Shown here: piece by piece, positions 7,845 to 35,635 of the stretch
Layout of the letters: every line of letters begins with the position of its first letter
Numbering within the stretch: position 1 is the first letter of the stretch
Source: a virus
IMG/VR virus record: IMGVR_UViG_3300037189_018556
Coordinates: 1 to 40,036 of that record
Length of the DNA stretch: 40,036 nucleotides
Strand: one strand, 5' to 3'
Made by a program: the position numbers and the translations under genes
Notes under the pieces: generated by a model
What the model was told of the DNA's origin: nothing
The model's input: only the letters and a program-made list of their open reading frames with translations
The model's database searches: none

Positions 7845-8219
7845 ATGCCTACTTTTATTGGATTCAATACCATAAATCAGAACAAAAAGTTTACCGCTGT
7901 GGACTTTGATCTGATCAAGATCGATTTGTTAAATGCCTTCAACATCAGACAAGGAGAGTTGCCAGGCCGTCCTGGATATGGCACAGTTATTTGGAACTAT
8001 TTGTTTGAAAATCAAACCAGCGAAACACAGGCTGCATTGTATCAAGAAATACAGCGAGTATGTGCCGGCGATCCTCGAGTCTATGTCAGTGGTCTGCAGA
8101 TATTTCCACAACAAAATGGTATCTTGATCCAACTGGGCCTAGCCGTGGTTCCCAGCACCAATGCGCAATTGTTGAGTATATTTTTCGACCAACAACAACG
8201 TTCGGCCACCTACGTTTAA
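7845..8219 (+). CDS. 25: Baseplate wedge subunit gp25-like (GPW/gp25 family)
   Basis: This 124-aa protein is close to the usual gp25 length (~130 aa). It shows the family pattern: DLIKIDLLNAFNIRQGELPG, then YGTVIWNYLFENQ, then a helix, then GDPRVYV in place of the usual E-P-R turn, and a final strand ILIQLGLAVVP. In contractile tails gp25 forms part of the sheath-baseplate joint and starts sheath polymerisation. It is followed by the only sizeable gap of the structural region before gp6 (45 nt), which holds a stem-loop and a TAAATA motif. Assignment is firm from sequence. The Asp-for-Glu change in the EPR motif is a mild deviation. Confidence 0.9.
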   Translation: MPTFIGFNTINQNKKFTAVDFDLIKIDLLNAFNIRQGELPGRPGYGTVIWNYLFENQTSETQAALYQEIQRVCAGDPRVYVSGLQIFPQQNGILIQLGLAVVPSTNAQLLSIFFDQQQRSATYV

Positions 8220-8264: not shown

Positions 8265-11200
8265 ATGGCTACAACATCAAGACAAACAGCGATTTTTGGC
8301 GTAGAAGACTGGAAACAAATCTATCAGGTCTATCAAGAAGCCGACTTCCAAAGTTACGATTTTGAAACTCTACGCAAAAGTTTCATAGATTATCTGCGCC
8401 TGTATTACCCAGAAACTTTCAACGACTACATTGAAAGTTCAGAATTCATTGCCTTGCTGGACGTCATGGCTTTTATGGGTCAAAGCCTGGCATTTAGAAC
8501 CGATTTAAACACCCGAGAAAACTACTTAGACACCGCCGAACGCAGAGACAGCGTGGTAAAATTGGCCAATTTGGTCAGCTATACACCTTTGCGCAATACC
8601 TGTGCATCGGGATATCTCAAAGTTTTTTCTGTGACTACCACTGAGAATATCATTGATTACAATGGCATCAATCTGGCCAATATCACCGTGAACTGGGCAG
8701 ATCCTACCAATGCCGACTGGCAAGAACAATTTATAACTATACTCAATGCCAGCCTGGTTAACACACAAAAATTTGGGCAACCATCCAGCAACAAAAGCAT
8801 CATGGGTGTTGACACACAAGAATATACCATAAATCTCATACCAGGCTATATTCCTGTGGTTCCGTTCACGGCCACCATTGACACAGTCAATATGCCTTTT
8901 GAAGTGGTCAATTCCACCACAGCCGGCGAAGATTATGTGTATGAACCACCTCCTCTGCCGGTGGGACAATTCAATATAATGTATCGCAATGACAAACAAG
9001 GTTTCCTCAGCAACAACACAGGTTTTTTCTTTTTGTTCAAACAGGGAGTATTGCAAAATCAAGACTTCAATTTGCCAGAAAAAATCATCAATCGTGCAGT
9101 CAACATCAACATAGAAGGCATCAACAATACCGACGTTTGGTTGTATAGATTAAACAACTTAGGCAACGTGGCCGGGTATTGGGAAAAGGTTCAGAGCGTA
9201 TACGCAGCTGCCGTGGAACAATTGGCTCCGGGCACCAGAGATATCTACAGTGTGACCAGTCGCACCAATGACCAAATCACATTGAATTTTGGAGATGGAA
9301 TTTTCAGCACCATACCAGTTGGAACCTTTAGGACCTATGTGCGTGCTTCAAATGGATTGAGCTATATCATTAATCCTGTCGAAATGCAGAGCGTGACTGT
9401 GCCCATCAACTATGTGAGCCGAACAGGTCAGATCGAAACCATCACGTTCACCTGCGGCATCACAGAGCCGGTGACCAATGCACAGGCACGCGAAACCATA
9501 CAAGAAATAAAACAACGTGCTCCTGCTCAATATTATACTCAAAATCGCATGGTCAATGGCGAGGACTACACCCAATTTCCTTTTACTCAATACAACAGTA
9601 TTTTAAAAAGCAGCGCTGTCAATCGTGCCAGCATAGGAACCAGTCGATATCTCGATTTGGTGGATGGCACAGGCAAGTATTCCAGCACAAATATTTTTGC
9701 CAGCGATGGTGCTATCTATCAAAATTTTGCACTGCCGGCATTTCAATTCAGTTGGTTGACTATCAATGACATCTCTGATGCTGTGATAAATCAGATCAAT
9801 CCTTTGTTGCTCAAGGCCGGTCTGCAACAATTTTATTTTGCCAACTACACACGCCCAGATTTGAGTGTGCTGAACTACAGTTGGAATCAGAGCACTGTGT
9901 TGGTCAATGAATGCACAGGGTATTTTCAAAATGCCGCACGCAATCCTCAGGCCATAGGCAATTATGCCAGCAACAATGCCAAATATATCACAGAAGGCAG
10001 CTTGGTAAAATTTGTTGCACCCACCGGCCGTTATTTTGATTCTGACAATCGTTTGGTTGTTGGGGTGCCAACACGGCCTGATGAAAAACTGACCATATGG
10101 GCCAGCCCCACAGCAGTCTATACATCCGGCACTGCAGAAGGACTTGGCAACTTGCCTTCCGGCGAAGGTCCAGTGGTCTTAAACAACTTTGTTCCCACAG
10201 GAGCCTTGCCCACACAGGTAATTCCTACATTTGTCACAGACATTCCTGTAAGTTTACAACAACAGATGGTGCAACAAATCTATCTCAATCAAAACTTTGG
10301 TCTGGGCTATGATAATCTCACTGCTACCTGGTATCTGATCACTTCAAACAATCTAGCTGTCAATGCCAGCTGGAATCAAACCTATGCTCAAAACACATCT
10401 GGATCCAATCTTGACGCTTCCTGGCTGATCCAGGCCACATTCAATGGATCTACCTACACAGTTGTATACAGATCTCTGAATTATTATTTTGGCAGCGTTC
10501 TACAGACCAGATTCTTCTTTTATACCGCCGATCCTATCTATGACAGTAGATCTGGAACTGTGATACGCGATTATGTAAACATCTTGAAAATCAACAGTAG
10601 ACCCGATGCCAGCGTGCCTTTGGGATCCGATACTGTGGTTACCATTATTGATCAGCCAGTCCTGAGTGATGGCTTGGTTGACGATTTCCAGGTGGAAGTC
10701 AGTTATACTCGAGCCCTAGGCGATGGAATTCCTATTAATCCAGATTTCTTTGATGAAATTGTAGCTCCTAATGTGAACAGCAATCAAAAATATGTCTATT
10801 TCCAACAAACAGTGGATTTTGACAATTTGCAACGCTATCTATTGATTGATGCAGGAATTGTCAACAGTGATTACCCTACCTTGGCCAGCATCCAAGCAGT
10901 CCAAACACAATACGAAGTTGGCCAAGTGTTTTATGCCTATCAAACACAGCTTTTTTATGTGTTAGGAGTTGATATCTTGGGTAATCCCACATTGACTCAA
11001 GATAATTCCTATCTGGCCAAAGTAGGACGTCAAGGTTTATATTTCCAATATCGACACAACAGTCCTCTGACCAGTCGCATTGATCCTGGAAGCACAAACA
11101 TCATTGATGTGTATTTGGTAACCAACGCCTACTACACTTCCTATATCAACTGGTTACAAGATACCACAGGCACAGTTTCCAAGCCCAGCGCACCTACATT

Positions 11201-11669
11201 GGATGATCTCAACACAGCTTATCAAGGTTTGCAAAATTACAAAATGATTTCAGACAACATGATTCTAAACAGTGTGTCTTTCCAACCATTGTTTGGTCAA
11301 AAGGCCGACCCAGCTTTGCGTGCCACTATCAAGGTCATACGGTCTGCCAACAGCACAGCCAGTGTCAGTGCTATAAAAAATCTTGTGGTGGCCAACATGA
11401 ATGCTTACTTTGATTTGGCCAATTGGAATTTTGGAGACACGTTTTATTTCAGCGAGCTGGCAGCCTACATACATCAAAACATAGGTGACGTGGTCAGCTC
11501 GGTGGTGTTGGTTCCTTTGAATCCACAGAAAAGTTTTGGTGATCTATACGAGATAAGATCGGCACCCAATCAGATTTTTGTAAATGGCGCCACAGTCAAT
11601 GATATAGAAGTTATCACTGCCTTGACCAGCACGAATCTACAAACTGCACCTGGTAGTGGAGTAATCTAA
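8265..11669 (+). CDS. 6: Baseplate wedge protein gp6-like
   Basis: This is a 1134-aa protein. The N-terminal ~100 residues carry the gp6 hallmark: FIDYLRLYYPETFNDYIESS, then FIALLDVMAFMGQSLAFR, DLNTRENYLDTAERRDSV and KLANLVSYTPL. gp6 forms the iris-like wedge ring of T4 baseplates (gpJ relative in simpler myophages). T4 gp6 is 660 aa, so this one is much longer. The extra length lies in the middle and C-terminal half, beta-rich and without recognisable enzymatic motifs. ERRDSV-type helices are followed by an INFGDG-like loop (LNFGDGIFSTIPVGTF, ~residues 343-358), another gp6/gpJ trait. It begins 45 nt after gp25 and its stop overlaps the start of the giant gene (TAATG). Family assignment is firm. 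Confidence 0.92.
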   Translation: MATTSRQTAIFGVEDWKQIYQVYQEADFQSYDFETLRKSFIDYLRLYYPETFNDYIESSEFIALLDVMAFMGQSLAFRTDLNTRENYLDTAERRDSVVKLANLVSYTPLRNTCASGYLKVFSVTTTENIIDYNGINLANITVNWADPTNADWQEQFITILNASLVNTQKFGQPSSNKSIMGVDTQEYTINLIPGYIPVVPFTATIDTVNMPFEVVNSTTAGEDYVYEPPPLPVGQFNIMYRNDKQGFLSNNTGFFFLFKQGVLQNQDFNLPEKIINRAVNINIEGINNTDVWLYRLNNLGNVAGYWEKVQSVYAAAVEQLAPGTRDIYSVTSRTNDQITLNFGDGIFSTIPVGTFRTYVRASNGLSYIINPVEMQSVTVPINYVSRTGQIETITFTCGITEPVTNAQARETIQEIKQRAPAQYYTQNRMVNGEDYTQFPFTQYNSILKSSAVNRASIGTSRYLDLVDGTGKYSSTNIFASDGAIYQNFALPAFQFSWLTINDISDAVINQINPLLLKAGLQQFYFANYTRPDLSVLNYSWNQSTVLVNECTGYFQNAARNPQAIGNYASNNAKYITEGSLVKFVAPTGRYFDSDNRLVVGVPTRPDEKLTIWASPTAVYTSGTAEGLGNLPSGEGPVVLNNFVPTGALPTQVIPTFVTDIPVSLQQQMVQQIYLNQNFGLGYDNLTATWYLITSNNLAVNASWNQTYAQNTSGSNLDASWLIQATFNGSTYTVVYRSLNYYFGSVLQTRFFFYTADPIYDSRSGTVIRDYVNILKINSRPDASVPLGSDTVVTIIDQPVLSDGLVDDFQVEVSYTRALGDGIPINPDFFDEIVAPNVNSNQKYVYFQQTVDFDNLQRYLLIDAGIVNSDYPTLASIQAVQTQYEVGQVFYAYQTQLFYVLGVDILGNPTLTQDNSYLAKVGRQGLYFQYRHNSPLTSRIDPGSTNIIDVYLVTNAYYTSYINWLQDTTGTVSKPSAPTLDDLNTAYQGLQNYKMISDNMILNSVSFQPLFGQKADPALRATIKVIRSANSTASVSAIKNLVVANMNAYFDLANWNFGDTFYFSELAAYIHQNIGDVVSSVVLVPLNPQKSFGDLYEIRSAPNQIFVNGATVNDIEVITALTSTNLQTAPGSGVI

Positions 11670-14600
11670 TGGCCAAGCAAGTGCGCAGTGTAGAATTCTT
11701 ACCAGAAATTTTTCAAACTCCCATCAATGAGCAGTTTTTGTCAGCCACCCTGGATCAGTTGATCCAAAATCCAAGATTCACACAATCGCAAGGATTTATT
11801 GGTCGGCGAGTTGGCCCCGGAGTCAATGCCAACGACAATTATGTTGTTGAACCTACCAAAACAAGAACGGACTATCAACTTGAGCCCGGAGTGGTCCAGG
11901 TTGATCCAAAAGATTTTCATCGGGTGGTTGATGCCATAACTTATCCGGGAATCACAGATGCTTTGCAAATGCAAGGTTCTTATGTTGACAATGCTCAACG
12001 ACTCTACACTAGTGATTATTACGCCTGGGATCCATTTGTTGATTTTGATAAATTGATCAACTATGCACAATATTTTTGGTTACCTGGAGGACCGCTGGCG
12101 GTAGACGTAAGTGCCACTGGCATACCATCGACCGACAGTTTTGATGTGACCAGAGAAAATGGTGTGTATACTTTTTCCGGAGTAAGTGGCAACAATCCAA
12201 TATTGACTCTGGTTCGCGGCGGCAGCTACACTTTCAATGTAGCCCAAAACGACAAGGAAACAGTCAACTTTAGAGTGACCAACAACGGAACCAGTAGTTG
12301 GAACATAGACTATCAGCCAAACCCCACTCTTACTTTGGTGCGCGGCAATACCTATGTTTTCAACCTCAGTCAGACATTTGATTGGTCTTTCTACATTAAA
12401 ACACAGATCAGTCTTGGCACTACCAACATATATTCCAACGGTGTTTTCAACAATGGTGGTGCGCAGGGGCTTGTTACTTTTACTGTGCCACAAGATGCGC
12501 CTGATACCTTGTATTATTGCAATGATGTGCAAATAAATTTACAAGGCCAAATCAATATTGTGGATGGCACTCCTGGCAATGGCCCTGGATTCTGGATACA
12601 GACAGACCCTGGAGTAAGTGGACGTATTCCAGCCACTCCAAACATCAGTGGTCGAGATGTATTGGGAGTCGTCAACAATGGCGAGGATCTTGGAACAGTG
12701 ACTTTTGATGTGCCTTTGTCAACGGCACAAAATTTTTATTATGACCTGCCCAGCATAGGTTCTGTGGATTTGATAACTGACCTTCAATTTGATCAAATCA
12801 ACAATCAATTCGTCGACAACTTTTTCACACAATATCCCAACGGCATAGACGGTATTACCAATCTCAACGGTAGAACCATTGTGTTTATGAATCAAGGCAC
12901 AGATCCTGTCACCGGCGGCTGGCAACAAACAACATTTTTTGATCCGTTGCCGGCAGGCGATCCTCCAGGGCCCGGTGGCTTTGATTCTGTGACCTTTGAT
13001 CAGACAACCCCTATCACTGATCCAGCGGTGCAATACAGTGTTTGGCAGATACAGTATGAAATAGCTGCCGGTGGTGGGGTCTATATGAGCCTCAAAAGTA
13101 TTTTGCAAGTTGACGCTCTCAACAAGTTTTCAATAGCATTTGGCGATCAGTGGAGCAACACCGGATGGTACAAAAATGAATCTGGTTTCTTTGAACAGAT
13201 TCCATTGTTGACAGCAATCAAAAATATTTTATGGTATCAGGATGGAACTGACCCAGAAATTTTTGGTCAGATACGTATCATTGATCAAACCCAGGCCGAC
13301 ACACTCAATGTCGAAGAAATCATAGGTCAAAAAAACTATGTGAGCCCCAACGGAGTGACTTTTACCAACGGACTCAAAGTAATATTTAGAGGCGATGTTT
13401 TTCCAACTCAATATAAGAATAAATCTTACTATGTTCAAGGTGTCGGAACTGCCATACAGTTGTTGCCCACTTCTGATTACATAACTCCAGAAACTTACAC
13501 TAAAAGTGCGTCAATACCCTACGATACCACGCCCTATGATTTGGGCAATTATGATGCCAGTTTGAATCAACCCTTGACGCCTGATTACATAACCATATCG
13601 CGAGATTCGCCGGATCTAAATCCATGGTCGCGCAGCAATCGATGGTTCCATATCGACGTTATCACAGCATCTGCTTTGTATAACAATACCCAACCAGTAA
13701 TAGACAATCAACTCAGAGCCAAAAGACCTATTTTGGAATTCCGTGGTGGCACCAGGTTATTCAATTTTGGAACACAAAGCAAACAGCCTGTTGACATCAT
13801 TGATTTTCGACAAACTGACGCATTAAGTGTGGTCAATGGCAGCACCGGTTACAGCACCGATGGTTACACAGTGCTGGACGGCACCAGGATTATATTTGCA
13901 GCAGATCTAGATGCAGATGTCCGTAAAACCATATACGAAGTGCGGTTCGTAACACCAGATTCAGTTCCGCCTTTGATAACTCAACCCATTATTGCACTGA
14001 TACCAGTCACTGATGGCACAGCCTTGGTCGATCAAAATGTTGTGGTTCTCAGTGGCCTGATAGAACAAGGACTCACATACAGATATGACGGTGTAGATTG
14101 GATCAAAACTCAACAAAAAAACAATGTCAATCAACCTCCATTGTTTGACATCTATGATAGAAATGGTGTGAGTTTTGGCAACAGAGCGATTTATCCCAGC
14201 ACGGATTTTGCAGGTAGCCCCTTGTTTAGTTACGCCATTGGAGATGCTGTACCAGATATCGTATTGGGATTCCCCCTCACTTATCTGAGTCTCAGCAACA
14301 TAGGGGACATAGTATTTGACAACAATTTTTACAAGGATTCTTTCAACTACACTGTAGAAGGAACAGGACTGACTGTGCCTCTTAGCACAGGTTTTGTGCG
14401 TCAATATCGTGACCGGGTTGATTTTGTAAGAGAGATAGGTTGGCAAACGGCTGTGACCTCTAGCTTGGTGCGGCAACAATTTCAGTTCAGCTACGACGGT
14501 GGTCCTTTGTTGCTGGATGTTGCTGTAAATGACAATAACACAGTGCCAGCCATACAGATTTTTATCAATGGAGAATTCCAGGAGTCCTATAATTATCAAT

Positions 14601-17600
14601 ATACAGTAGGCACCGACACTACCACTATCAATCTCTTGACCACTTATGTGCCCGGTGATCAGATCATTGTGGCAGTGTTGAGCGATCAGATAAGTCAACA
14701 AGGATTTTATCAGGTTCCTATCAATCTCCAAAACAATCCTCTCAACGAAAACAGCCAGCAATTCAGCCTGGGCACCATACGCAATCATTATGTTACCATA
14801 GCCCAAAATCTTATTGATTTGTCCGGACCTCCCATTGGCCCCAACAACGTGAGAGACCTGGGCAATGTGATACCTTATGGCTTGCAAATATTACAGCAAA
14901 GTTCGCCTTTGACTTTGACTGGATATTTCATGCGAGATCCCAACTATAACATTTTTGGTGCCTTGCAATACAACAGTTCTGAATATATCAAATTCAAAAC
15001 ACAATTATTAAACACGGTGACCACATTTGGCATAGCTGACTACGATAATTGGACCGTGTCCCGCCTGCTGGATGAATCAATATCACAGATCAATCTTGGC
15101 AAAACCAGCGTAAATCCATTTTACTGGAGTGATATGTTGCCTACGAGTCCAACATTCACTTCCAATTCATATGTAATCAATCCTGTTACCACAAGAACAT
15201 TCAATCTCACACAAACTTACAGTTATACCGAATCAAACTACCAAGGATTGTGTGTTTACATAGACAATGTTCTTCTGACACGAGATACAGATTATGTTGT
15301 GTCAACTGAAGGACCCACATTGACCATTGAACCGCAGGTGCCTTTTGCTGTCGGGTCTACCGTGACAATCAATGAATATACCAGCACCGTGGGAAATTTT
15401 GTCCCCAACACACCTACCAAACTGGGTTTGTATCCCAAATATCAACCAAAGATATTTTATGACACAAATTATGTGAATCCAACTTTGGTTATTCAAGGAC
15501 ATGATGGATCTATTACCACAGCATTTGGTGACATCAGAGATCGGGTGTTGTTGGAATTTGAGACCAGAATTTATAACAATTTAAAAAATGATGGTAACCC
15601 ACCGCCTTTGGTAGCTGAAGATGTTATTCCAGGATTTTTCCGCACTACCGATTACAATCAACAAGAAATAAATCAGATATTGGGCGAACAATTTCTGGCC
15701 TGGGTAGGAGCCAACAAACTGGATTATACGCAACAAACTTATCTGGCCAACAATGAATTTACCTACAACTACAGTCAGGCCGGTAATAGAATCAATAATC
15801 AGCCACTGTTGGGAGCCTGGCGTGGCATATATCGTTATTTCTATGACACCACTTCGCCAAATACCACACCTTGGGAAATGTTGGGTTTAAGCGAAGAACC
15901 AAGCTGGTGGGCAGATCGCTATGGTCCAGTGCCTTACACCAGTGACAACTTGGTGCTTTGGGGTGATCTTGAACAGGGATTGGTGGCTGACCCGGTAGCT
16001 CCTTATGTGATTCCAAAATATCGTAGACCTGGACTCACACAAGTTATTCCTGTGGACAATCAAGGAAATCTTTTGCCTCCGTTGCAGAGTGTGGTAGGTC
16101 CATACGATCCTCAGGGATTTGTTGCCAGTTGGAAAGTGGGAGACGGTGGACCGGTAGAAGCTTCGTGGTGGTCAAGTTCCAGCTATCCTTTTGCAGTCAT
16201 GCGCTTGCTGATATTGACAAGACCAGCAGAATTTTTCAGTCTGTTTGCAGACAGAGATTTGTACAAATACAGTCCTGAGTTTGACCAATATCTTTATGAT
16301 GGTCGTGGTCGCATACAACCCAAGCAGATAGAAGTTTATGGCAACGGAATCAGCAAGGCCAGTTATATTGACTGGATAGTTGATTACAATCAGCAACTAG
16401 GAATAGACAGCACCGATGCTTTGACCACAGACTTAGACAACATAGATGTGCGTTTGTGCTATAGATTCGCCTCGTTTGTGGCCGAATCAAATCTAGCGGT
16501 TTATCTAGAAAAAGGCAGCGCTCAAAGTCAAAACACCAGTTTGCTGGTGCCGCCCGAAAGCTTCAATCTGTTGCTGTATAAAAATCAACCTTTCAATCGT
16601 TTAGATTACAGTGCGGTCATTGTAGAGGTAGTTGAAGACGGTTACAGCGTATATGGTTACAGTGCTATCAACCCTTATTTTTCTATATTGACCAGCCAGG
16701 TAGCAGGATCCAGCCAAACTTTGACAGCCGGCAATGTCACTGTCACTGTTCCTAGTTCTTATACCAACAAGGTCGCACAGATACCGTATGGTTATACATT
16801 TGCAAATCTTACCGGTGTAGTGGACTTTTTGTTGAGTTATGGACAGTTTTTGGCAAGCCAAGGATTGTCATTCACAGTGCAAGAAAATGGATACACCTTG
16901 AACTGGATACAGATGGCCCAGGAATTCTTGTATTTTGCCAATCAAGGATGGGCACCAGGCACTATAATCAATCTCAATCCATCGGCCACGCAAATAACAT
17001 CTTTCCGTCCTGGTGCAGTGGTAGATTCCATAGTGACTTATACACCAGAGAATCTACTGCTGGATCAAAATCGCAAGGCTTTTGACTCGAGAGATTTGAT
17101 TATACGTCGCCAAGGCAATGTGTTTTCCTTGAATCCCGATCCGGCCGGCAGTCAAACCATCAGTTATTTGCAACTAAAATATACCGATTATGAAAACATG
17201 ATGGTGTTGGACAATCGCACCATTTTTAATGACTTGATCTATGACACCATCACAGCAGAAAGACAAAATCGTCTCAGACTCATGGCCAGTGTCAGCACCG
17301 GTTGGAACGGAGTGCTTAATGCTCAAGGATTCATACTCAACCAAGACAATGTGGTTGATTGGCAGACCAATACCAAGTATACCAAGGGTGACATGGTTTT
17401 ATACAAAAACAGTTACTGGCAGGCCATTGACATCATACAACCCAAGGCAAAATTTGAATATGGTGACTGGTATAAGAGCAACTATGACCTAATAGAACAG
17501 GGGCTTTTACAAAATTTGGCAACCAAGGCTGAACAACTTGCCAACAGTTATAACACTCAGACTGCCAATTTAAACAACGACAACGATCTTTTGGCCTATG

Positions 17601-20600
17601 GATTGATCGGATTTAGGCCAAGACAATACATGACTGATCTGGATCTTAGCAGTTCCAGCCAGGTCATGATTTATCAACAGTTTATTAAGACCAAAGGAAC
17701 CACACAGGCCACCGATCTGTTTACCAAAGTAAACTTCAACAAAGAAATCGGCGAATACAATATTTTTGAAAACTGGGGTATATTGGTTGGAACGTATGGA
17801 GCCAATGCCAATCGCAGTTGGTTTGACATAGCATTGAATGAAGCTTTGCTAAACGGAAATCCCAGCACAGTGCAGATAATCCAACCAGGACAATCCAGCG
17901 TGGCCAATCAAACTATTCTGCTCGAAGATCTCTGGGCCGAAAGTTATGTTACCCCCTCCACAGACATACTACCTACTACCTACGTGACCAATTCTGATAG
18001 TGCGTTGCCATCGGCTGGATACGTCAATATCAATGATGTTGACATCACGGTTTTCAATCTCAATAATCCTAGTGCTATTGCCAGAGACATTGGAACCATA
18101 GGCAATGGCACAAGTATCTGGGTTGCACAAATCAATGGATATGATTGGGCAATATATCGTTGTGCCCAGGTTCCAGGACGTCTTATCAGACTGACTGACA
18201 ACTTAAATGGAACCAGTCAAGCACAATTTTCACAAACCACTAATCTTGAACGCGGTGATTTGATAATTGTAAGGTATTTTGATTCGGCAGTAGATGGTGT
18301 TTATCGAGTGATCAGTGTGCCGGCTATAGATACTGTGGTCATTGAGTATGCATTTACCAATTCAAATCAAACTTCGATCAGCGGCACAGGGTTGGTGTAT
18401 TATCTGCAGTCTATGAGAGTCGCCCAGGCCAGCGATGTGGCCGAGCTGTCTTATGCCAACGACTTGCTACCTGGAGCCCGAGTGTGGGTAGACAATGACG
18501 GGTCGGGACACTGGCAGGTCATTGAAAAACAAAGTCCGTTTGAAGAATTACAACAAATACAGCCCGAAAATCTCGATCCCAATTCGTATTTTGGTTCCAG
18601 CGTGTCGCAGAGCAATGATAATTACTCCTTGCTGGTAGGTGCTCCAAACACTTTATCTGGCACAGGAGCTGTTTACAGCTATTTTGTCGATCAAGACAAT
18701 CAATTTGCTCAAAGTTTGGTATTGACTCTGACAGCCCCAGGCACGCAGGGATTTGGCAACAGTGTTGACTTTGGCAATAGATCTTGGGCCATGGCCGGAG
18801 CCAGTGCCAGCAACTCAGCTGCAGGTTATGCGGTAATACTTTATCAGCAACCAGGAAGTCAGGCATTTGTTCAGACACAATTGCTGACCGCACCAGATCT
18901 TGATTTCTCGGCCATTGGGTTTGGTGCATCTGTGATTGTGTCAGATGATGAGCGCATGGCCTACGTGGGGGCGCCCGACGGTAATCGGGTATATGCTTAT
19001 GGAAGAGTTGACATACCCACTCAAATTATAACTTATGTTGCTAATGGCGTCACAGCAACTTTTACTTACAACACGCAGATAGCCATCAATTCGGCACAGC
19101 CAGAACAGTTGGTAGTGTTGGTCAATAATTTGGAATGTGTTTATCTCCGAGATTATACCATTTCTGGAACTTTGGTGCAACTGACTTTTGTTCCTGTTGC
19201 AGGGCAACGAGTGATCATAGCTCGTAAACAAGTTGCGCAACTGGATTTTGCCATATATTTTGGTGTCACACAAGATTTTGCTTCTGGATCTGGCACTGGT
19301 GCTGTGTTCACAGTGAGCAATACACGAGGACAATACAGTGTCTCGATCACATCACCGGGTATCAACTACAACATCGGTGACACACTGACTGTATCCTACA
19401 CGCAGATTGATCCGTCTGGCAGCGTGGCCAATGATCTAACAATCACGGTGACCGAAGTTACATCTGGAGGCATCACTGATTTTACTATTTCTGGATTTGG
19501 TGTCAGCAACACTGCTGTGTTTTCTTTGGCACAATTTCTTTACACTGCCACCAGCATTGATGCATTCACTTTGTCTGTGAACGGAGTGTTGCAACGTCCC
19601 AACATTGACTACATTTTCAGTTATCCTAATGTGACTTTTTTAAATGTTCCTCCTGCCGGCGCTATCATAGGAGCCACTGCTGGGACCTATTGGCAATACA
19701 TTGACACCATCACTGTTTCGGGCGTGGACATCAATGCCAAATTTGGCGCCAGCATAACCACTGATCAAAATGGTCGACAAGTGTTAATTGGAGCACCTTT
19801 TGATACAGCCTTGGACTCTCAAGGTAGTCCGGTGGTCTATGCCGGAGCGGTCTATGCCATAGATCGTGGAGTGATCAAATATATTGTTGACAATCCTGGT
19901 CAACTGACCTATGCTATTCCAGGATCATTTGTAGAACCCATACAAGTAACCTTGAACAATCAATATCTCACCAATACCGACCAATATATCAATGGGCAGT
20001 ATTCAGTTGTTGGATCAAATATTGTTCTCAACACTGGACTGACTTTGAACATAGGGGACAGTATAGAAATTGAAACCAATCAGTTCCAACTTGTGCAAAA
20101 AATAACAGCCAATACTGTCATAGACGAGTCTGAATTTGGGTATGCCTTGGACATCTGCTCCAACAATTGCAGTGTATACATAGGAGCTCCCTTGGACAGC
20201 TATGTCAGCCAGGTGCATCAATCGGGCATGGTGCAACGACAAGTGAATCAATCCAGAGTCTATGGAATTATAACCACCACCGCGGCCAACCCCGCCCTGG
20301 TGCCTCAAAACACCATACGCATCAATGACATGGAGGTGTCGGTCCCGGCCGAACCCAACAACACTGTGGCCGGGCTGGTCGGAGCAATTAATTCAGCACA
20401 GATACCCAATGTGGTAGCGTCTTTGGTCCCCAATGTGATCTTGCAAGGCACAGGTTCCCGACAAGTTTTTGATATTGGAAATATCTATTCTACGGCATCT
20501 TCTTACACGCCGATTGTGTATGTCAACAATGTTTTACAGATATTAAACATTGATTACACCTATAACAATTCAACTCAACAGATATCTTTTGTGTCGGCCC

Positions 20601-23600
20601 CAGCAGCACGTGCCCGTATAGAGGTCGTAGCTGGAAGAATGACCATCAGCGTGATCAATGCCAATGCAGCACAAGAATTCAACAAGCTCACAGTATTACC
20701 TGGTATTTCGTCCAACGACAGTGCAGAAATTTCTGCATTTTACGATTTAGGATTCGTTACCTACGCCTACACTCAATCTATCAGCAGTCCAAATCCCACA
20801 GACTATGCTTACTTCGGTTCCAGTGTCAATGTCAACACTGGATCGATCAATCTCGTGATAGGAGCTCCCAATGGAGAGGTTTATGAGGCCACTACCTTTG
20901 ACAACAATCTTACCTATTTCGATGACCGTAGCACCACCTATTTCAACACCATAGCTAATTCAGGAGTGGTCTATACATTTGATTATTTGCCTAGTGCAGA
21001 TTCCAGTTTAGAAAATCCAGGTAAATTTGTGTTTGGTCAACAGGTTTACAAAAATAGCGTGCAGACTAATGATCAATTTGGTCATTCGGTGAATTATCGC
21101 CGTGGTCGTTTGGTGGTAGGCACCCCCGGCGACGAAATCAACAACAGCGACACCAACTATGGTTCAGTGACTGTGATTGACAATGCCGGCGATGCACCGG
21201 TATGGACAGTGATCTATAATCAACTACCCATGGTTGATGTTAATTTGCTTAATTCTGTCTATTCCTACGACAAACTATTGACCAACACACAAACCTATTT
21301 TGATTACATTGACCCTTTGCAAGGCAAAATATTAGGGGTTGCACGCAGAAACATAGACTACATAGGTGCTGTGGATCCGGCCAGTTATAATGCAGGTCTG
21401 ATTCATAATGTTGGAACCAGTTGGGGATCTGCACATTTGGGACAGATTTGGTGGGACACCAACCGGGTAAGATTTATAGATGCCAATCAGGACAATCTCA
21501 TATATGCAAGTCGGCGTTGGGGCCAAGTGTTTCCTGGCAGTGAAGTAGATGTATATCAGTGGATTGAAAGTTCAGTGCCCCCTGTCAATTATACCGGCAG
21601 TGGCACCCCCTTTAGCACAGTGAGTTATACTGTAAGTTCCTTGATCAATGACCAAGGAATATTGGTTACCAATTATTATTTCTGGGTTCGAGGTCTAACC
21701 ACCGTGGCAACTGAGGCAGGAAAAACTCTCAGTGTATCAGCAATTGCATCCTATATTCAAAATCCCTTAGGCAGCGGGTTGCCTTACATAGCCGCACTCA
21801 GTGCCAATGCTTTGGCTCTCTACAATGCCAATGGTTTGTTGTCGGCCAACGACACCATCCTACATGTAGAATACGACCGCCAGATCCTAGGAGGAAATTC
21901 AAACATACATACCGAATATGAATTTATTACCGACGGCAAACCATCCAGTTTTCTAAATGCCAACTTGTATCGTAAATTCATTGACAGTTTTTGTGGTATA
22001 GACACTTTGGGCAATGCAGTTCCGGACCCAACTCTAAGTCCAGGCATGCGTTATGGGGTGCAATTCCGTCCGCGCCAGAGCATGTTTGTAGACAGATTGT
22101 TGGCCTTGAAAAATTATCTGCAATATGTCAACAAAATCCTGGCGCAATTTCCTATATCAGAAACTAAAAGTTTTTCTTTGTTGAACAGTGCTCAGCCAAT
22201 TCCTGCAGCAAATACCGGGGCTTGGAATTTAGAAGTGCCAAATTTAGAAATCTTGGCCTACCAAAATATTGCCGCAGTGCCGCTGGGCTACAAATATTTG
22301 GTAATGTCAGATGCCAGCTTGAATGGATTATGGAGTATCTACACAGTAACAGACATCTCGGGCGGGCAACGTGAACTTAGTCTCACACTGGTTCAAAATT
22401 ACTATACACCAGCTTATTGGAACTATATCAACTGGTATCAGCCAGGATACAACAGCAGCATCACGCCCATAGCCACTGTGGCCAACACAGCAGGATTACA
22501 GACCTTGAGTCTGCAAACAGCTTCAGTGGGCAGCAGCGTTAAAGTGGCTGCCAATGGCCAGGGCAAATTTGAAATCTATGTTAGAACCGACACAGGATGG
22601 AACAGGGTAGGATTGCAAGATGGAACCATAGAATTCAGTGCCAAGCTATGGGACTATGCATTGGGACGATTTGGTTTTGATGCTGAGGTTTTTGATTCAC
22701 AATTTTTTGATCAAGAGCCAACGATTGAAACCAGACAGATCATACGTGCCATCAACGAGGAACTGCTCATAGATGAATTATTAATTGAAAGAAATCGTGC
22801 TCTCATACTGATGTTCCAGTTCATCTATACAGAGTTAAACAGCCCAGAATGGTTGGTAAAGACCAGTTACATCAATGTCAATCATGTGATCCGGGGATTA
22901 TTGCCAATACAATTGTATCAGCCTGACAATCAAACCTTTGTGCTGGATTACCTAAACGAAGTCAAACCATATCATGTTCAAAATCTTGAATTCAATTTGG
23001 TCTATGATGGACTAGATCGTTATCCAGGTGCTTTGACTGATTATGATGTGCCAGCCTATTATAATACCTCGCTGGAATCACCACAATTTACAAGTCCAAT
23101 ACTTTTACCATACACCTATTCGGACAGTATCAATCAATCTTTTGTAAGCGATGCACCAGCCAACGCACAGATTTGGTTGGAAAGACCGTGGAGTGATTGG
23201 TTCAACAATTATTTGTTGAGCATCCAAGCAGTAGAAGTGTTAGATCAAGGAAGCGGATACACCACAGCACCAACAGTGTCGGTATCGGGCGAGTGTGTGC
23301 GACAGGCACAAATGACCGCCATCATAAACAGCGCAGGAAAAGTTGTGGCTATAACAATAGATGACCCGGGCGAAGGATATACTACTACCGCCGTTCTTAC
23401 TTTGGTAGGTGGCGGCGGCACCGGAGCCACAGCACGAGCACAGATGGGCAACAATCTTGTGCGTTCTTTCAAGACCACAATAAAATATGATCGGTATCAA
23501 TATCGCAGCACAATCGTAGATTGGGAACCCAATGTGGTTTATGTGGCCGGGACTCGAGTGCGTTGGTCCAATTTGGTTTGGTCGGCCAACAGCACACTAT

Positions 23601-26326
23601 CGGGCCCGGTATTCATACCATCTGACTGGACCCGTGTTTCTGCAGCATCTCTCAGTGGCGTAGATCGCACCATGGGCTTCTACTTGCCAGGTCCCAACAT
23701 GCCAGGCCTAAGCCTGCCACTGCTGGTGGATGGTGTTGACTATCCTGGAGTTCAAGTAGATGCTCCGGATTTCAATCAGAACACTGGGTATGATGTTGGA
23801 AATTTTGATATCAATCCCTTTGATAATCTTTCTGTGGATCGCGAAGGTCGACCAACCTATGACTATGGTATTTTAGATGTGCAATATGCCAGCAGCTATC
23901 TTGATCTATATCTGGGAACTAGACCTACAGACATCAACGTAGATGGCGGTGCTTACATAGACACATTCAGCAGCCATGCTCCTGAAGAACTCATACCCGG
24001 CAGCGAATTTGATACTTTGGATTTTAGAGTTTACACTACACCCGGAAGTGATTGGACCGGTGGCGGACATGGATTTCCAGCAGGTAACCGTAGATATGTG
24101 TATGACTCGGCCAACCCCACTGTGAGCTTTGCTGGCATAATTGATTTGCCGTTTACAGTGCAGGTTTTCAATGCCACCTTGGGCATAGCCATAGAACCGG
24201 TCAGTTATGACTGGGCCAACTATGAAGTCACCCTAGGGCTGACCGAAACTGATGGCGATATCATCAATGTCTACGTAACTGGAGTTGGTGGTGGAAATCA
24301 GCTTTACAATCGCACTTATCTGGGCAATGAAGTTGGCGATACTATCACGGTGCCATTTCCTTATAATTCTATCTATGAATTCTTGATCTACAATGGTGAA
24401 ACACGACTAGAGCCCGGTGTTGATTACACCTGGGCATCACAAACTCAAACGTCTACTCGAATAACATTTGTTAACACCTATGGAGCCTCAGATCGCATAA
24501 ATCTTTGCACCTTGGGATATGCTCCTCCTGAACAGACCACACATAGCTGGAGTCTGCCAGTGTTTCAGACAGAGATATCTGATGGTAGTTTGAGTATTCC
24601 TTTAGTTAATAGTCTGCAAGGAACAAATCCTGTGAATTTGATAGTGGTCAGCAACGGAGCACGTCTAAGACCATCAGAAGGTATGGAGCACATGGGCGAC
24701 GGAACCACCGTGACATTTGATTTGCCTATGAATGGTGGATATAGTCAAGGCCTTATTTCTGACAACGATGTTTCAGTATATGTTGACAATCAACCAACTA
24801 TTCAAGGAATTAATTATCAAGTTGATGCATGGGATGGATCCTCTGCACGAACAATTACATTTTTTGATGCTCCGGCAATGGGCAGTGTGATATTGATCAG
24901 TGTGAGAACCAAGGCACAATATTGGATTTTAGGTGACGAATTGGTATTTCAGCCCGCCAACGGATATTCTCCAACTCCGGGAGATATCATTGACATCGTT
25001 ACATGGAACGATACCAGCCAACAAGGATTGCTTACACAGGTATTTGTAGGCGAAGGGGAATCTCCATATCATACCTATGACACCTCACATCCTATTTCTA
25101 ATCCTGACAGGATTCTTGTTACCTTAGACGGAGAATGGTTGTTTGCTGGATTGAACTTTGTTACTGTGGGCGAAACCAAGATTAGAATCACAGGACTACC
25201 TATAACTTCTAATTCGGTGATAGCTATTACTTGTCTTACCCAAAGTGTTGTCCCAGGAGCCATGGCATTCCGTATCTTCCAAGACATGCGTGGGCTACAA
25301 GCCACTTATCGTATCACCTCAGAAACTACCACATCAATCACTGCCCCGGTGTCTATTACCGACGACGTGATCTATGTCAAAGATGCCAGTGCTTTGAATA
25401 CACCAGATTTTGAAATCAATTCATGGGGTGTGGTAACCATTAATGCTGAACGTATTATGTATCGTGAACGCAACATCCTCAACAACACTATCAGCAGTCT
25501 GTTGAGAGGAACTGCAGGAACTGCTGTTGCTGCTCATGAATCTGGTGCCACAGTCTATGACATGAGTCGCGAAAACTTATTGCCAACTCTGTATCAAGAT
25601 TATATCAACAGCAACACTTTTATGGCAGATGGAGCCACTAGCACTTATGTAACTGACATAGTCGTAGACAATCGACCATTGGTTTATCTTGGTGGCATAG
25701 TGCAAGTGACTGTGGGCGGAAATCTACAAGATCCTTCTACCTATGTGGTGACACAGGTTGAACCAGTGGCCATAGAGTTTGTTGCTATTCCGGCTCTGGA
25801 TCAACAGGTTATTGTGACTGTGCTATATCTAGACTCCACAGAACAACAGCAGGTGTTTACTGCCACCGGCAGCAGTGCCAAGTTTGTGACATCGCTTGAC
25901 ATTGGACTGCAAGAACAAGCCTCTAATACCTATGTGCTAGATGACTTCAATCCAGTCACTGTTACGTTCAACACTGCACCTTTCCCTGGTCTTTGCGTTT
26001 ATATAAGAACCCAACAAGGAGCCGAAGATCAATTTTATTTTACGTTTGCAGATGGATCAACCACGACATTTGTCACCAACATAGATCTTTCAATCCCGGT
26101 GCGTGTGTTGATTGGTGGCATTGAACAAGATCCTAGTACTTATTTGGTTACCTCATTGGACCTAGTCACTGTTCAATTCGCCCAATCAATACCCGCAGGA
26201 CTGGAGGTTGTCATTTATGTAAGACAGGGCATATCCTGGTATCAGCCAGGGCCAACCACAGCCAGCGACGGTGTTCCTTTGCAAGATACCAACACACAAC
26301 CAGCAAGGTTTTTGAGGGGCCTTTAA
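11669..26326 (+). CDS. Giant modular tail/baseplate protein (4885 aa)
   Basis: One uninterrupted frame of 14.66 kb directly follows gp6 (TAATG overlap), in the slot of gp7 and the later wedge genes of T4. The N-terminus (VEFLPEIFQTPINEQFLSAT) and later landmarks such as PWEMLGLSEEPSWWADRYGP (~1400) and NEVKPYHVQNLEF (~3764) recall very large structural proteins of aquatic T4-like phages, sometimes labelled VrlC-like. That label is from memory and unverified. In order: an N-terminal attachment domain; a cupredoxin-like module (~174-300); a long beta/alpha body; seven FG-GAP repeats (~2305-3174) interrupted by beta modules; an aromatic-rich stretch; two GxGY-type units (~3860-3926); repeated VxVNG-like beta modules (~4230-4860), one interrupted by an RGTAGT segment (~4585-4630). 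No transmembrane segment, signal peptide or protease motif was noticed. It probably forms extended baseplate appendages. The exact role is inferred from position. Confidence 0.85.
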   Translation: MAKQVRSVEFLPEIFQTPINEQFLSATLDQLIQNPRFTQSQGFIGRRVGPGVNANDNYVVEPTKTRTDYQLEPGVVQVDPKDFHRVVDAITYPGITDALQMQGSYVDNAQRLYTSDYYAWDPFVDFDKLINYAQYFWLPGGPLAVDVSATGIPSTDSFDVTRENGVYTFSGVSGNNPILTLVRGGSYTFNVAQNDKETVNFRVTNNGTSSWNIDYQPNPTLTLVRGNTYVFNLSQTFDWSFYIKTQISLGTTNIYSNGVFNNGGAQGLVTFTVPQDAPDTLYYCNDVQINLQGQINIVDGTPGNGPGFWIQTDPGVSGRIPATPNISGRDVLGVVNNGEDLGTVTFDVPLSTAQNFYYDLPSIGSVDLITDLQFDQINNQFVDNFFTQYPNGIDGITNLNGRTIVFMNQGTDPVTGGWQQTTFFDPLPAGDPPGPGGFDSVTFDQTTPITDPAVQYSVWQIQYEIAAGGGVYMSLKSILQVDALNKFSIAFGDQWSNTGWYKNESGFFEQIPLLTAIKNILWYQDGTDPEIFGQIRIIDQTQADTLNVEEIIGQKNYVSPNGVTFTNGLKVIFRGDVFPTQYKNKSYYVQGVGTAIQLLPTSDYITPETYTKSASIPYDTTPYDLGNYDASLNQPLTPDYITISRDSPDLNPWSRSNRWFHIDVITASALYNNTQPVIDNQLRAKRPILEFRGGTRLFNFGTQSKQPVDIIDFRQTDALSVVNGSTGYSTDGYTVLDGTRIIFAADLDADVRKTIYEVRFVTPDSVPPLITQPIIALIPVTDGTALVDQNVVVLSGLIEQGLTYRYDGVDWIKTQQKNNVNQPPLFDIYDRNGVSFGNRAIYPSTDFAGSPLFSYAIGDAVPDIVLGFPLTYLSLSNIGDIVFDNNFYKDSFNYTVEGTGLTVPLSTGFVRQYRDRVDFVREIGWQTAVTSSLVRQQFQFSYDGGPLLLDVAVNDNNTVPAIQIFINGEFQESYNYQYTVGTDTTTINLLTTYVPGDQIIVAVLSDQISQQGFYQVPINLQNNPLNENSQQFSLGTIRNHYVTIAQNLIDLSGPPIGPNNVRDLGNVIPYGLQILQQSSPLTLTGYFMRDPNYNIFGALQYNSSEYIKFKTQLLNTVTTFGIADYDNWTVSRLLDESISQINLGKTSVNPFYWSDMLPTSPTFTSNSYVINPVTTRTFNLTQTYSYTESNYQGLCVYIDNVLLTRDTDYVVSTEGPTLTIEPQVPFAVGSTVTINEYTSTVGNFVPNTPTKLGLYPKYQPKIFYDTNYVNPTLVIQGHDGSITTAFGDIRDRVLLEFETRIYNNLKNDGNPPPLVAEDVIPGFFRTTDYNQQEINQILGEQFLAWVGANKLDYTQQTYLANNEFTYNYSQAGNRINNQPLLGAWRGIYRYFYDTTSPNTTPWEMLGLSEEPSWWADRYGPVPYTSDNLVLWGDLEQGLVADPVAPYVIPKYRRPGLTQVIPVDNQGNLLPPLQSVVGPYDPQGFVASWKVGDGGPVEASWWSSSSYPFAVMRLLILTRPAEFFSLFADRDLYKYSPEFDQYLYDGRGRIQPKQIEVYGNGISKASYIDWIVDYNQQLGIDSTDALTTDLDNIDVRLCYRFASFVAESNLAVYLEKGSAQSQNTSLLVPPESFNLLLYKNQPFNRLDYSAVIVEVVEDGYSVYGYSAINPYFSILTSQVAGSSQTLTAGNVTVTVPSSYTNKVAQIPYGYTFANLTGVVDFLLSYGQFLASQGLSFTVQENGYTLNWIQMAQEFLYFANQGWAPGTIINLNPSATQITSFRPGAVVDSIVTYTPENLLLDQNRKAFDSRDLIIRRQGNVFSLNPDPAGSQTISYLQLKYTDYENMMVLDNRTIFNDLIYDTITAERQNRLRLMASVSTGWNGVLNAQGFILNQDNVVDWQTNTKYTKGDMVLYKNSYWQAIDIIQPKAKFEYGDWYKSNYDLIEQGLLQNLATKAEQLANSYNTQTANLNNDNDLLAYGLIGFRPRQYMTDLDLSSSSQVMIYQQFIKTKGTTQATDLFTKVNFNKEIGEYNIFENWGILVGTYGANANRSWFDIALNEALLNGNPSTVQIIQPGQSSVANQTILLEDLWAESYVTPSTDILPTTYVTNSDSALPSAGYVNINDVDITVFNLNNPSAIARDIGTIGNGTSIWVAQINGYDWAIYRCAQVPGRLIRLTDNLNGTSQAQFSQTTNLERGDLIIVRYFDSAVDGVYRVISVPAIDTVVIEYAFTNSNQTSISGTGLVYYLQSMRVAQASDVAELSYANDLLPGARVWVDNDGSGHWQVIEKQSPFEELQQIQPENLDPNSYFGSSVSQSNDNYSLLVGAPNTLSGTGAVYSYFVDQDNQFAQSLVLTLTAPGTQGFGNSVDFGNRSWAMAGASASNSAAGYAVILYQQPGSQAFVQTQLLTAPDLDFSAIGFGASVIVSDDERMAYVGAPDGNRVYAYGRVDIPTQIITYVANGVTATFTYNTQIAINSAQPEQLVVLVNNLECVYLRDYTISGTLVQLTFVPVAGQRVIIARKQVAQLDFAIYFGVTQDFASGSGTGAVFTVSNTRGQYSVSITSPGINYNIGDTLTVSYTQIDPSGSVANDLTITVTEVTSGGITDFTISGFGVSNTAVFSLAQFLYTATSIDAFTLSVNGVLQRPNIDYIFSYPNVTFLNVPPAGAIIGATAGTYWQYIDTITVSGVDINAKFGASITTDQNGRQVLIGAPFDTALDSQGSPVVYAGAVYAIDRGVIKYIVDNPGQLTYAIPGSFVEPIQVTLNNQYLTNTDQYINGQYSVVGSNIVLNTGLTLNIGDSIEIETNQFQLVQKITANTVIDESEFGYALDICSNNCSVYIGAPLDSYVSQVHQSGMVQRQVNQSRVYGIITTTAANPALVPQNTIRINDMEVSVPAEPNNTVAGLVGAINSAQIPNVVASLVPNVILQGTGSRQVFDIGNIYSTASSYTPIVYVNNVLQILNIDYTYNNSTQQISFVSAPAARARIEVVAGRMTISVINANAAQEFNKLTVLPGISSNDSAEISAFYDLGFVTYAYTQSISSPNPTDYAYFGSSVNVNTGSINLVIGAPNGEVYEATTFDNNLTYFDDRSTTYFNTIANSGVVYTFDYLPSADSSLENPGKFVFGQQVYKNSVQTNDQFGHSVNYRRGRLVVGTPGDEINNSDTNYGSVTVIDNAGDAPVWTVIYNQLPMVDVNLLNSVYSYDKLLTNTQTYFDYIDPLQGKILGVARRNIDYIGAVDPASYNAGLIHNVGTSWGSAHLGQIWWDTNRVRFIDANQDNLIYASRRWGQVFPGSEVDVYQWIESSVPPVNYTGSGTPFSTVSYTVSSLINDQGILVTNYYFWVRGLTTVATEAGKTLSVSAIASYIQNPLGSGLPYIAALSANALALYNANGLLSANDTILHVEYDRQILGGNSNIHTEYEFITDGKPSSFLNANLYRKFIDSFCGIDTLGNAVPDPTLSPGMRYGVQFRPRQSMFVDRLLALKNYLQYVNKILAQFPISETKSFSLLNSAQPIPAANTGAWNLEVPNLEILAYQNIAAVPLGYKYLVMSDASLNGLWSIYTVTDISGGQRELSLTLVQNYYTPAYWNYINWYQPGYNSSITPIATVANTAGLQTLSLQTASVGSSVKVAANGQGKFEIYVRTDTGWNRVGLQDGTIEFSAKLWDYALGRFGFDAEVFDSQFFDQEPTIETRQIIRAINEELLIDELLIERNRALILMFQFIYTELNSPEWLVKTSYINVNHVIRGLLPIQLYQPDNQTFVLDYLNEVKPYHVQNLEFNLVYDGLDRYPGALTDYDVPAYYNTSLESPQFTSPILLPYTYSDSINQSFVSDAPANAQIWLERPWSDWFNNYLLSIQAVEVLDQGSGYTTAPTVSVSGECVRQAQMTAIINSAGKVVAITIDDPGEGYTTTAVLTLVGGGGTGATARAQMGNNLVRSFKTTIKYDRYQYRSTIVDWEPNVVYVAGTRVRWSNLVWSANSTLSGPVFIPSDWTRVSAASLSGVDRTMGFYLPGPNMPGLSLPLLVDGVDYPGVQVDAPDFNQNTGYDVGNFDINPFDNLSVDREGRPTYDYGILDVQYASSYLDLYLGTRPTDINVDGGAYIDTFSSHAPEELIPGSEFDTLDFRVYTTPGSDWTGGGHGFPAGNRRYVYDSANPTVSFAGIIDLPFTVQVFNATLGIAIEPVSYDWANYEVTLGLTETDGDIINVYVTGVGGGNQLYNRTYLGNEVGDTITVPFPYNSIYEFLIYNGETRLEPGVDYTWASQTQTSTRITFVNTYGASDRINLCTLGYAPPEQTTHSWSLPVFQTEISDGSLSIPLVNSLQGTNPVNLIVVSNGARLRPSEGMEHMGDGTTVTFDLPMNGGYSQGLISDNDVSVYVDNQPTIQGINYQVDAWDGSSARTITFFDAPAMGSVILISVRTKAQYWILGDELVFQPANGYSPTPGDIIDIVTWNDTSQQGLLTQVFVGEGESPYHTYDTSHPISNPDRILVTLDGEWLFAGLNFVTVGETKIRITGLPITSNSVIAITCLTQSVVPGAMAFRIFQDMRGLQATYRITSETTTSITAPVSITDDVIYVKDASALNTPDFEINSWGVVTINAERIMYRERNILNNTISSLLRGTAGTAVAAHESGATVYDMSRENLLPTLYQDYINSNTFMADGATSTYVTDIVVDNRPLVYLGGIVQVTVGGNLQDPSTYVVTQVEPVAIEFVAIPALDQQVIVTVLYLDSTEQQQVFTATGSSAKFVTSLDIGLQEQASNTYVLDDFNPVTVTFNTAPFPGLCVYIRTQQGAEDQFYFTFADGSTTTFVTNIDLSIPVRVLIGGIEQDPSTYLVTSLDLVTVQFAQSIPAGLEVVIYVRQGISWYQPGPTTASDGVPLQDTNTQPARFLRGL
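12184..12567 (+). other. Cupredoxin-like domain with missing copper ligands (in giant protein)
   Basis: Residues ~174-300 of the giant protein carry two LTLVRGxxYxFN strands, SFYIKTQ, then GLVTFTVPQDAPDTLYYC and LQGQINIVD. This is the layout of the plastocyanin-like module common in aquatic phage and marine proteins, which usually reads HPFxI and YxCxxHxxMxG. Here the first His is replaced (WSFYIKT) and the second motif reads YYCNDVQINLQG. The Cys remains, but the two His and the Met are gone, so copper binding is unlikely. Confidence 0.6.
18581..21190 (+). repeat. Seven FG-GAP-like repeats (predicted beta-propeller) in giant protein
   Basis: Repeat starts: residue 2305 (nt 18581), 2360 (18746), 2415 (18911), 2689 (19733), 2819 (20123), 3045 (20801) and 3134 (21068). 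Each has F/Y-G-x-S/A-V or a similar strand, ~10-14 residues, then a V/I-G-A-P or close variant, usually followed by a G-x-V/A-Y strand: FGSSV...LLVGAPN; FGNSV...AMAGASA; FGASV...AYVGAPD; FGASI...VLIGAPF; FGYAL...VYIGAPL; FGSSV...LVIGAPN; FGHSV...LVVGTPG. The first three are back to back. Large beta modules are inserted after blades 3, 4 and 5. The calcium-binding DxDxDG loops of integrin-type FG-GAP repeats are not evident. Confidence 0.7.
23246..23446 (+). repeat. Two GxGYxxxP-type glycine-rich units in giant protein
   Basis: Residues ~3860-3926 read DQGSGYTTAPTVSVSG ... GKVVAITIDDPGEGYTTTAV ... VGGGGTGATARAQM. This is a pattern of alternating GxGY turns and G-G-x-G-A-x-A strands found in many phage fibre and tail proteins. 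A weaker relative lies near residue 2545 (nt 19285-19500). The function is probably a structural beta-solenoid-like spacer. Confidence 0.55.
24352..26245 (+). repeat. Array of VxVNG/xxxDYxV beta-sandwich modules in giant protein C-terminus
   Basis: At least six consecutive modules of ~60-90 residues share a plan: a strand such as FLIYNGETRLEPGVDYTW or VRVLIGGIEQDPSTYLV, then a VTFxxxP strand, then G-x-x-V/I-x-V. Starts are near nt 24352, 24760, 25105, 25680, 25870 and 26050. Related copies occur earlier, near nt 14545, 15240, 19075, 19565, 19935 and 20515. An inserted segment (~25330-25570) holds GVVTINAERIMYRE and LLRGTAGT...H..GATVYD, another motif known from tail proteins. Spacing is irregular and nucleotide identity low, so these are old duplications. 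Confidence 0.6.
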
Positions 26327-34614: not shown

Positions 34615-35635
34615 AACAGTTCTTGTCACTGGCGGTGCCGGTTTTATAGCCCATCACATGATAGCACATATCATACGACACACTGATTGGTCGGTGATCA
34701 GTTTGGATCGACTGGATTTCAGCGGAAACCTCAACCGCTTGCAGGATATCATGATGGAATTCTCTCCACAGGATCGAGCCCGAGTGCGTGTGATATATCA
34801 TGACCTGCGAGCCGAAATCAATTCTATGTTGTCGGCCGACATCGGTCCGGTTGATTATATCCTGCATCTGGCAGCCAGTAGCCATGTTGATCGCAGCATA
34901 GCCCGTCCCATGGAATTTGTTATGGACAATGTTGTAGGAACAGTAAACTTATTACAGTTTGCCAGAACTCAACCTGCCCTGGAAAAATTTGTTTATTTTA
35001 GCACGGACGAAATATTCGGCCCAGCGCCCATTGGAGTGGCCTATTCCGAAAGGGATCGCTACAACTCAACAAATCCCTACTCGGCCAGCAAAGCAGCCGG
35101 TGAAGAAATGTGTGTGGCTTTTGAAAACACTTATAACTTGCCTATCGTGATAACGCACACCATGAATGTGTTCGGCGAACGTCAGCATCCAGAAAAATTT
35201 GTCCCGTTGTGCATTCGTAGAATACAGGCCGGTGAAGAAGTGCTGATACATTCCAACAAAGAACGCACGGTGGCCGGGTCAAGACATTATATCCATGCCG
35301 AGGATGTGGCTGCCGGTGTCATGTTTATTCTTGCTTTGGATCTATTAATGTTACCGCAAGATTTTGGCGGCGCCAAATGCCCTAAGTTTAATCTGGTGGG
35401 GCCCGAGGAAATTGATAATTTGACTTTGGCACAGACCATAGCACAAGTTATAGGCAAACCATTGAATTATCAATTGGTAGACTTTCACAGTAGTCGCCCT
35501 GGACATGACTTGCGTTATGCACTCAGTGGGGAATACATGCTCGATCTGGGTTGGCACCCACAATTTAGACTACAAGATAGAATAGCACAAGTAGTAAATT
35601 GGACTTTGGCTAACAACCGCTGGATAAAAATATGA
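34589..35635 (+). CDS. Nucleotide-sugar 4,6-dehydratase-like (extended SDR, RmlB type)
   Basis: This 348-aa protein has the usual length for this family. It has the Rossmann glycine motif VLVTGGAGFIAHHM (~11-24), an LHLAASSHVDRSI loop, STDEIFG with Thr139, Asp140 and Glu141 (the catalytic triplet of dTDP-glucose and related 4,6-dehydratases), Y164-SAS-K168 as the catalytic pair, and SRPGHDLRYAL near residue 300, typical of RmlB. All dehydratase residues are present, so it probably makes a 4-keto-6-deoxy sugar nucleotide. dTDP-glucose is the best guess; related UDP, CDP or GDP substrates cannot be excluded. It would feed the neighbouring glycosyltransferases. ATG 34589 lies inside the previous gene (26-nt overlap), and the stop overlaps the next start (ATGA). 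Confidence 0.87.
   Translation: MQPILKKSKTVLVTGGAGFIAHHMIAHIIRHTDWSVISLDRLDFSGNLNRLQDIMMEFSPQDRARVRVIYHDLRAEINSMLSADIGPVDYILHLAASSHVDRSIARPMEFVMDNVVGTVNLLQFARTQPALEKFVYFSTDEIFGPAPIGVAYSERDRYNSTNPYSASKAAGEEMCVAFENTYNLPIVITHTMNVFGERQHPEKFVPLCIRRIQAGEEVLIHSNKERTVAGSRHYIHAEDVAAGVMFILALDLLMLPQDFGGAKCPKFNLVGPEEIDNLTLAQTIAQVIGKPLNYQLVDFHSSRPGHDLRYALSGEYMLDLGWHPQFRLQDRIAQVVNWTLANNRWIKI

Follow-up and report, generated by a model that had tools for sequence, protein, structure and literature searches.

Results

The baseplate locus and its giant protein

The window (the whole 40,036-nucleotide stretch analysed here, from IMG/VR virus record IMGVR_UViG_3300037189_018556) contains an open reading frame for a 4,885-residue giant virion protein of the baseplate locus (11669..26326, + strand). 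The protein belongs to phrog_10938 (virion structural protein; profile match E=8e-296), and blastp revealed conserved, co-linear flanks shared with named phages. In tblastn searches its core region matched 86 named phage records, among them PA5oct, 121Q, Atu_ph07 and SCTP-2, each of which encodes a homologue. The giant is preceded by genes for a gp53-like wedge protein, a hub/lysozyme, a gp25-like baseplate wedge protein (7845..8219, +; phrog_261 and phrog_43) and, directly upstream, a gp6-like baseplate wedge protein (8265..11669, +; phrog_10646, E=1.3e-282, and phrog_219), and the same gene order leads up to the giant in PA5oct and 121Q. Since the contigs that carry related giants reach 317-344 kb, we take these viruses to be jumbo phages.

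In T4, gp7 comes after gp6, and the giant likewise directly follows the gp6-like gene. Orthology with T4 gp7 was nevertheless rejected, as it gained no support from hhalign (homology probability under 1% across ten segments) or from the fold of residues 1000-2110, whose model matched no PDB fold at E<=1e-3. The giant is a baseplate-locus protein at the gp7 position, and is not gp7.

Some further features of the locus can be recorded here. Two CBM_5_12-like chitin-binding stretches lie at 17360-17425 and 23522-23587 (residues 1898-1919 and 3952-3973), just below the Pfam cut-off; the core model also gave local matches to chitin-binding domains, and one PA5oct-type record carries the same annotation. 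The C-terminal part of the giant (23516-26326, residues 3950-4885) is its most length-variable portion among relatives, and in two of them (L004 and L005) it is shorter by several hundred residues. Nucleotide-sugar epimerase and radical SAM genes follow downstream of the tail genes, at 34589-36471.

Seven FG-GAP repeats predicted to form a closed propeller

Residues 2285-3178 of the giant (18521..21202, +) make up a predicted propeller domain. The FG...GAP motif occurs at residues 2308, 2362, 2418, 2692, 2823, 3049 and 3137 (blades 1 to 7 respectively), which are the only seven matches in 4,885 residues, and the offset from FG to GAP is 14-16 residues in all seven blades. Shuffled versions of the giant gave a mean of 0.024 matches and a maximum of 2 (3,000 shuffles), for a pattern whose spacing was fixed after inspection of these same seven repeats. 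The Pfam profile FG-GAP_2 (PF14312), which is independent of the window sequence, scored 43.7 bits against the whole protein and 58.8 bits against the region, where the cut-off is 23. Scans of viral contigs gathered 250 loci, some of them overlapping, and yielded a non-redundant set of 92 sequences with the propeller, in which every one of the seven FG columns is kept, the G of the FG being present in 88-92 of the 92 at each blade. Across this set the number of blades is held and the length of the inserts is not, the successive blade-to-blade spacings being 52-129, 54-72, 188-349, 121-216, 148-270 and 88-164 residues. Motif scan, family profile and conservation together bear out the original prediction of seven FG-GAP repeats, made from the sequence alone, and the positions that it gave (residues 2305, 2360, 2415, 2689, 2819, 3045 and 3134) are correct to within 2-4 residues.

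No match to the propeller was found by tblastn against 50,697 named phage records, the propeller profile found nothing significant among PDB sequences, and a scan of genome contigs confirmed no cellular relatives. We make no claim for a Phage_T7_tail match, which was seen in only one of eight relatives, or for a Gp18_dom_I match that fell below its cut-off.

AlphaFold2, supplied with an alignment of 90 natural relatives, modelled residues 2288-3196 with a mean pLDDT of 92.1 and a pTM of 0.90. DSSP applied to this model gave 28 strands that fit 7 x 4, arranged as seven A-B-C-D sets, and the best PDB folds found by Foldseek were integrin-alpha propellers (4wk4_A, E=1e-8, probability 1.00; 160 matches at E<=1e-3). 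The accompanying TM-scores are low (0.2-0.3 when query-normalised, with an rmsd of about 20 A), which we think is due to the alignments crossing about 460 residues of inserts. The model thus gives good support to a seven-bladed propeller of the integrin-alpha type, as originally predicted, and showed neither a non-propeller fold nor a periodicity unlike that of four-strand blades. Foldseek against a viral library returned an uncultured Caudovirales protein (E=1.3e-28), together with giant-virus FG-GAP proteins, a virion protein of cyanophage S-TIM5 and gp320 of Atu_ph07, so FG-GAP-type propellers are not new to viruses. Atu_ph07 gp320 (L177:7019-8200, 393 aa, annotated as 'hemagglutinin') is a stand-alone FG-GAP propeller adjoining tail sheath genes, and has a homologue in Sinorhizobium phage Phosso.

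The motif scan and DSSP allow the parts of the predicted ring to be mapped along the + strand. Blades 1 (18560..18727, also an FG-GAP_2 stretch) and 2 (18728..18895) are uninterrupted. Blade 3 is split into strands A-C (18896..19009) and strand D (YWQYIDTI; 19682..19717), blade 4 into strands A-C (19718..19873) and D (20075..20107), and blade 5 into strands A-C (20108..20251) and D (20756..20785). Blade 6 (20786..21049) has a 33-residue B-C loop. Blade 7 (21050..21184, also matched by Pfam) shows just three strands, A-C, and an extra strand precedes blade 1 at residues 2290-2297 (18536..18559). In the model this strand is likely to be the fourth, outer strand of blade 7, a pairing we infer, and would close the ring in the manner of a 'velcro'.

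The A-B loops are 2-5 residues long and the window protein has no DxDxDG in its blades, so integrin-type calcium sites are absent. The prediction had described these sites as lost; their absence stands, but a loss does not follow, because FG-GAP_2 blades may never have had them. The A-B loop of blade 5 contains a conserved CxxxC (20156-20170; residues 2830 and 2834), with its two cysteines present in 86 and 85 of the 92 sequences respectively. This loop corresponds to the one that holds calcium in some integrin blades, and the CxxxC is possibly a staple or a metal site.

Modules inserted within blades 3, 4 and 5

Large beta insertions had been predicted to lie between blades. They are present, but DSSP places each of them inside a blade, between strands C and D: 224 residues of beta modules in blade 3 (19010..19681), a beta module of 67 residues in blade 4 (19874..20074) and 168 residues in blade 5 (20252..20755), the last with a nested beta module at about residues 2925-2988. 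By alignment, the blade 3 insertion is partly missing from three relatives (L003, L005 and L006), and the nested module of blade 5 is absent from these and from L002. The C-D and A-B loops of integrin propellers lie on one face. By analogy with that geometry, and from the strand assignments in the model, the three large insertions should crowd one face of the ring.

A joint profile built from four insert stretches matches its sources by construction and found one weak match elsewhere in the giant, at residues 1175-1219; from their similar appearance the inserts may be akin to one another. No sugar-binding family was detected in the inserts, and the idea that the blade 5 insert is flagellin-hook-like had no Pfam match behind it and was dropped. 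Some basal members have compact propellers free of large inserts; L256, which falls in the other main half of the propeller clade, carries seven blades at spacings of 60-100 residues and no large inserts. Given this compact seven-blade version in L256, the inserts probably came after the ring.

Among close relatives, identity is 74% in the core, 41-74% in the blades, 51-59% in the inserts and 49% in the C-terminal part (3950-4885). The most divergent parts are that C-terminus and blades 1 and 7, which are neighbours at the closure (41-45% identity), with blade 6 the least variable. The inserts do not vary more than the loops on the opposite face.

Insertion site and distribution among relatives

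The domain boundaries are set by relatives that lack the propeller. On the left, blastp homology to L235, L203, L257, L178 and L219 ends at a host strand ...HWQV (residues 2281-2284; 18509..18520, +), and on the right, homology to L235, Atu_ph07 and SCTP-2 resumes at the strand WTV (residues 3179-3181; 21203..21211, +). In L235 the left-flank homology stops at the match to residue 2284 (...GTWAV) and the right-flank homology starts at the match to residue 3179 (WTVARQQ), leaving a gap of about 7 residues, and L203 is alike. The 894-residue propeller thus occupies what reads, in the sequences of L235 and L203, as the turn of a hairpin. In a ring that closes on itself the two termini would be side by side, and such a domain can be accommodated in a hairpin turn without necessarily disturbing the host hairpin.

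Homology between the giant and its named relatives covers roughly residues 1-150, 520-2090 and 3179-3800, and no FG-GAP repeats were found at the propeller site in PA5oct, 121Q, Atu_ph07 or SCTP-2. Further lineages hold different material at this site, as in the Atu_ph07 giant, which has about 1,500 residues without FG-GAP there. A GSGYT-type repeat module of the window protein (23219-23446; residues 3851-3926) has matches at several points along the Atu_ph07 giant, largely where the window phage has its propeller.

Across 123 non-redundant giants, the propeller is present in 101, absent in 20 and unclear in 2. On the core tree (FastTree, unrooted, long branches present), its distribution takes 2 changes against a shuffled mean of 18.8, and a branch with 100% support divides a side on which 101 of 104 rows carry it from a side on which it is absent from all 19. 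The blade counts are lower bounds in distant giants, where the blade HMM from the window's clade finds 4-6 blades and 7 are readable, as judged from lengths and from L256. L218 is the lone propeller-less row within the propeller side. L218 and L237, both in the propeller clade, have almost no FG-GAP blades and long gaps of 1405 and 1480 aa; here the propeller has perhaps been replaced by something else.

We favour a history in which the propeller was inserted, probably once, in an ancestor from which a large clade of uncultured phages descends. Since the tree is unrooted, a gain is favoured rather than proven, and the two changes would also fit if the propeller had been ancestral to all giants and lost on the branch leading to PA5oct, 121Q, Atu_ph07 and SCTP-2; that L218 lacks it within the propeller clade also fits such losses. 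We consider an ancestral propeller unlikely, given that the propeller-less giants span longer and more diverse branches and that in some of them the site is still a short, clean hairpin. The insertion site and the clade pattern can be read directly from the comparisons, and the history as a whole is well supported.

Discussion

The domain described here has recognisable counterparts. Like other Pfam FG-GAP_2 propellers it has seven copies of a repeat scoring above the curated cut-off and short A-B loops, but it differs from them in the large C-D insertions of three blades and in being nested within a 4,885-residue phage protein. With the integrin alpha propeller it shares seven FG-GAP blades and its best solved-fold matches, but not the DxDxDG calcium loops. 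The alpha-I domain of integrins is inserted between blades 2 and 3, whereas the inserts of the window protein lie inside blades 3, 4 and 5. PA5oct gp355, 121Q gp582, Atu_ph07 gp180 and SCTP-2 gp140 belong to the same gene family as the giant but lack the propeller; Atu_ph07 gp320, in contrast, has FG-GAP_2 repeats and a compact propeller by fold (TM 0.65, target-normalised) but is a separate gene without large insertions.

Propellers are also known from other phage tails, which we compare here by description. Those of the T7 gp12 and SU10 nozzles are seven-bladed, velcro-closed structural cores in the tail (PMC6702177, PMC9509320), and that of SU10 docks a short fibre, is nested in a platform domain and has Ig-like domains inserted between its blades (PMC9509320). 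The window propeller resembles them in blade number and may do so in its closure; theirs, however, belong to short-tailed phages, lie in another gene neighbourhood and are not described as FG-GAP (PMC6702177, PMC9509320). The contractile-tail baseplate genes around the giant speak against a hexameric nozzle of this type below a portal or adaptor. The jumbo myophage phiKZ has a seven-bladed propeller, gp131C (PDB 4GBF), at the periphery of its baseplate, with unproven roles in recognition or as an enzyme (PMC4901313). It forms the C-terminal domain of a different protein, and was not among the 50 PDB matches listed by Foldseek. No description of FG-GAP propellers in phage tails was found in the literature searched. 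FG-GAP propellers are in themselves known; the variant described here stands clade-wide in a giant of the baseplate locus and has modules internal to its blades.

Judging from gene order, the propeller most likely sits on the baseplate periphery, and we favour, at a probability of about one half, a role there as a rigid docking platform. An FG-GAP_2 seven-bladed ring would have entered the hairpin turn of the giant in the ancestor of the clade, where it may place neighbouring baseplate or fibre proteins, and blades 3, 4 and 5 would later have gained beta modules that extend one face for further protein contacts. We prefer this role to direct recognition of the host since the pattern of variation is unlike that of a hypervariable receptor tip and since the T7 and SU10 propellers serve as structural cores. 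The original prediction had suggested that the insertions contact a receptor or glycan, which the moderate conservation of the propeller, the unremarkable variability of its inserts and the lack of a detected sugar-binding family leave possible but not established. A recognition device binding a cell-surface sugar or protein is a tentative alternative, in keeping with the recognition roles proposed for the propellers of phi11 gp45, PRD1 P2 and phiKZ gp131C and with the gain and loss of inserts among relatives. The fast divergence of blades 1 and 7 also counts in its favour and against a docking platform, since surfaces in contact with host receptors might diverge in this way. The low Foldseek TM-scores and the lack of homology to T4 gp7, a wedge protein encoded at the equivalent position, also weigh against the explanation that we favour.

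Hydrolases and lyases are common among seven-bladed propellers, so the fold class would permit an enzyme or an enzyme-like relic, and a cell-degrading enzyme is one guess for phiKZ gp131C. We regard this as very improbable for the window protein, in which FG-GAP_2 is the only repeat family found, no enzyme family was detected in Pfam or NCBIfam, and the top folds are integrins.

A further, tentative reading is that this clade of uncultured jumbo phages bears on its baseplate an integrin-like headpiece contained in one giant protein. A closed ring would have been inserted once in a hairpin turn, and its blades 3-5 would afterwards have become sites where exchangeable modules land and tune contacts with host or fibre.

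The giant illustrates clearly how a whole ring domain can occupy a turn of seven residues in a virion protein and go on to gather modules itself, with the empty, compact and elaborated states all visible in natural relatives. The propeller marks a large branch of uncultured phages and provides a concrete, testable part of their baseplate.
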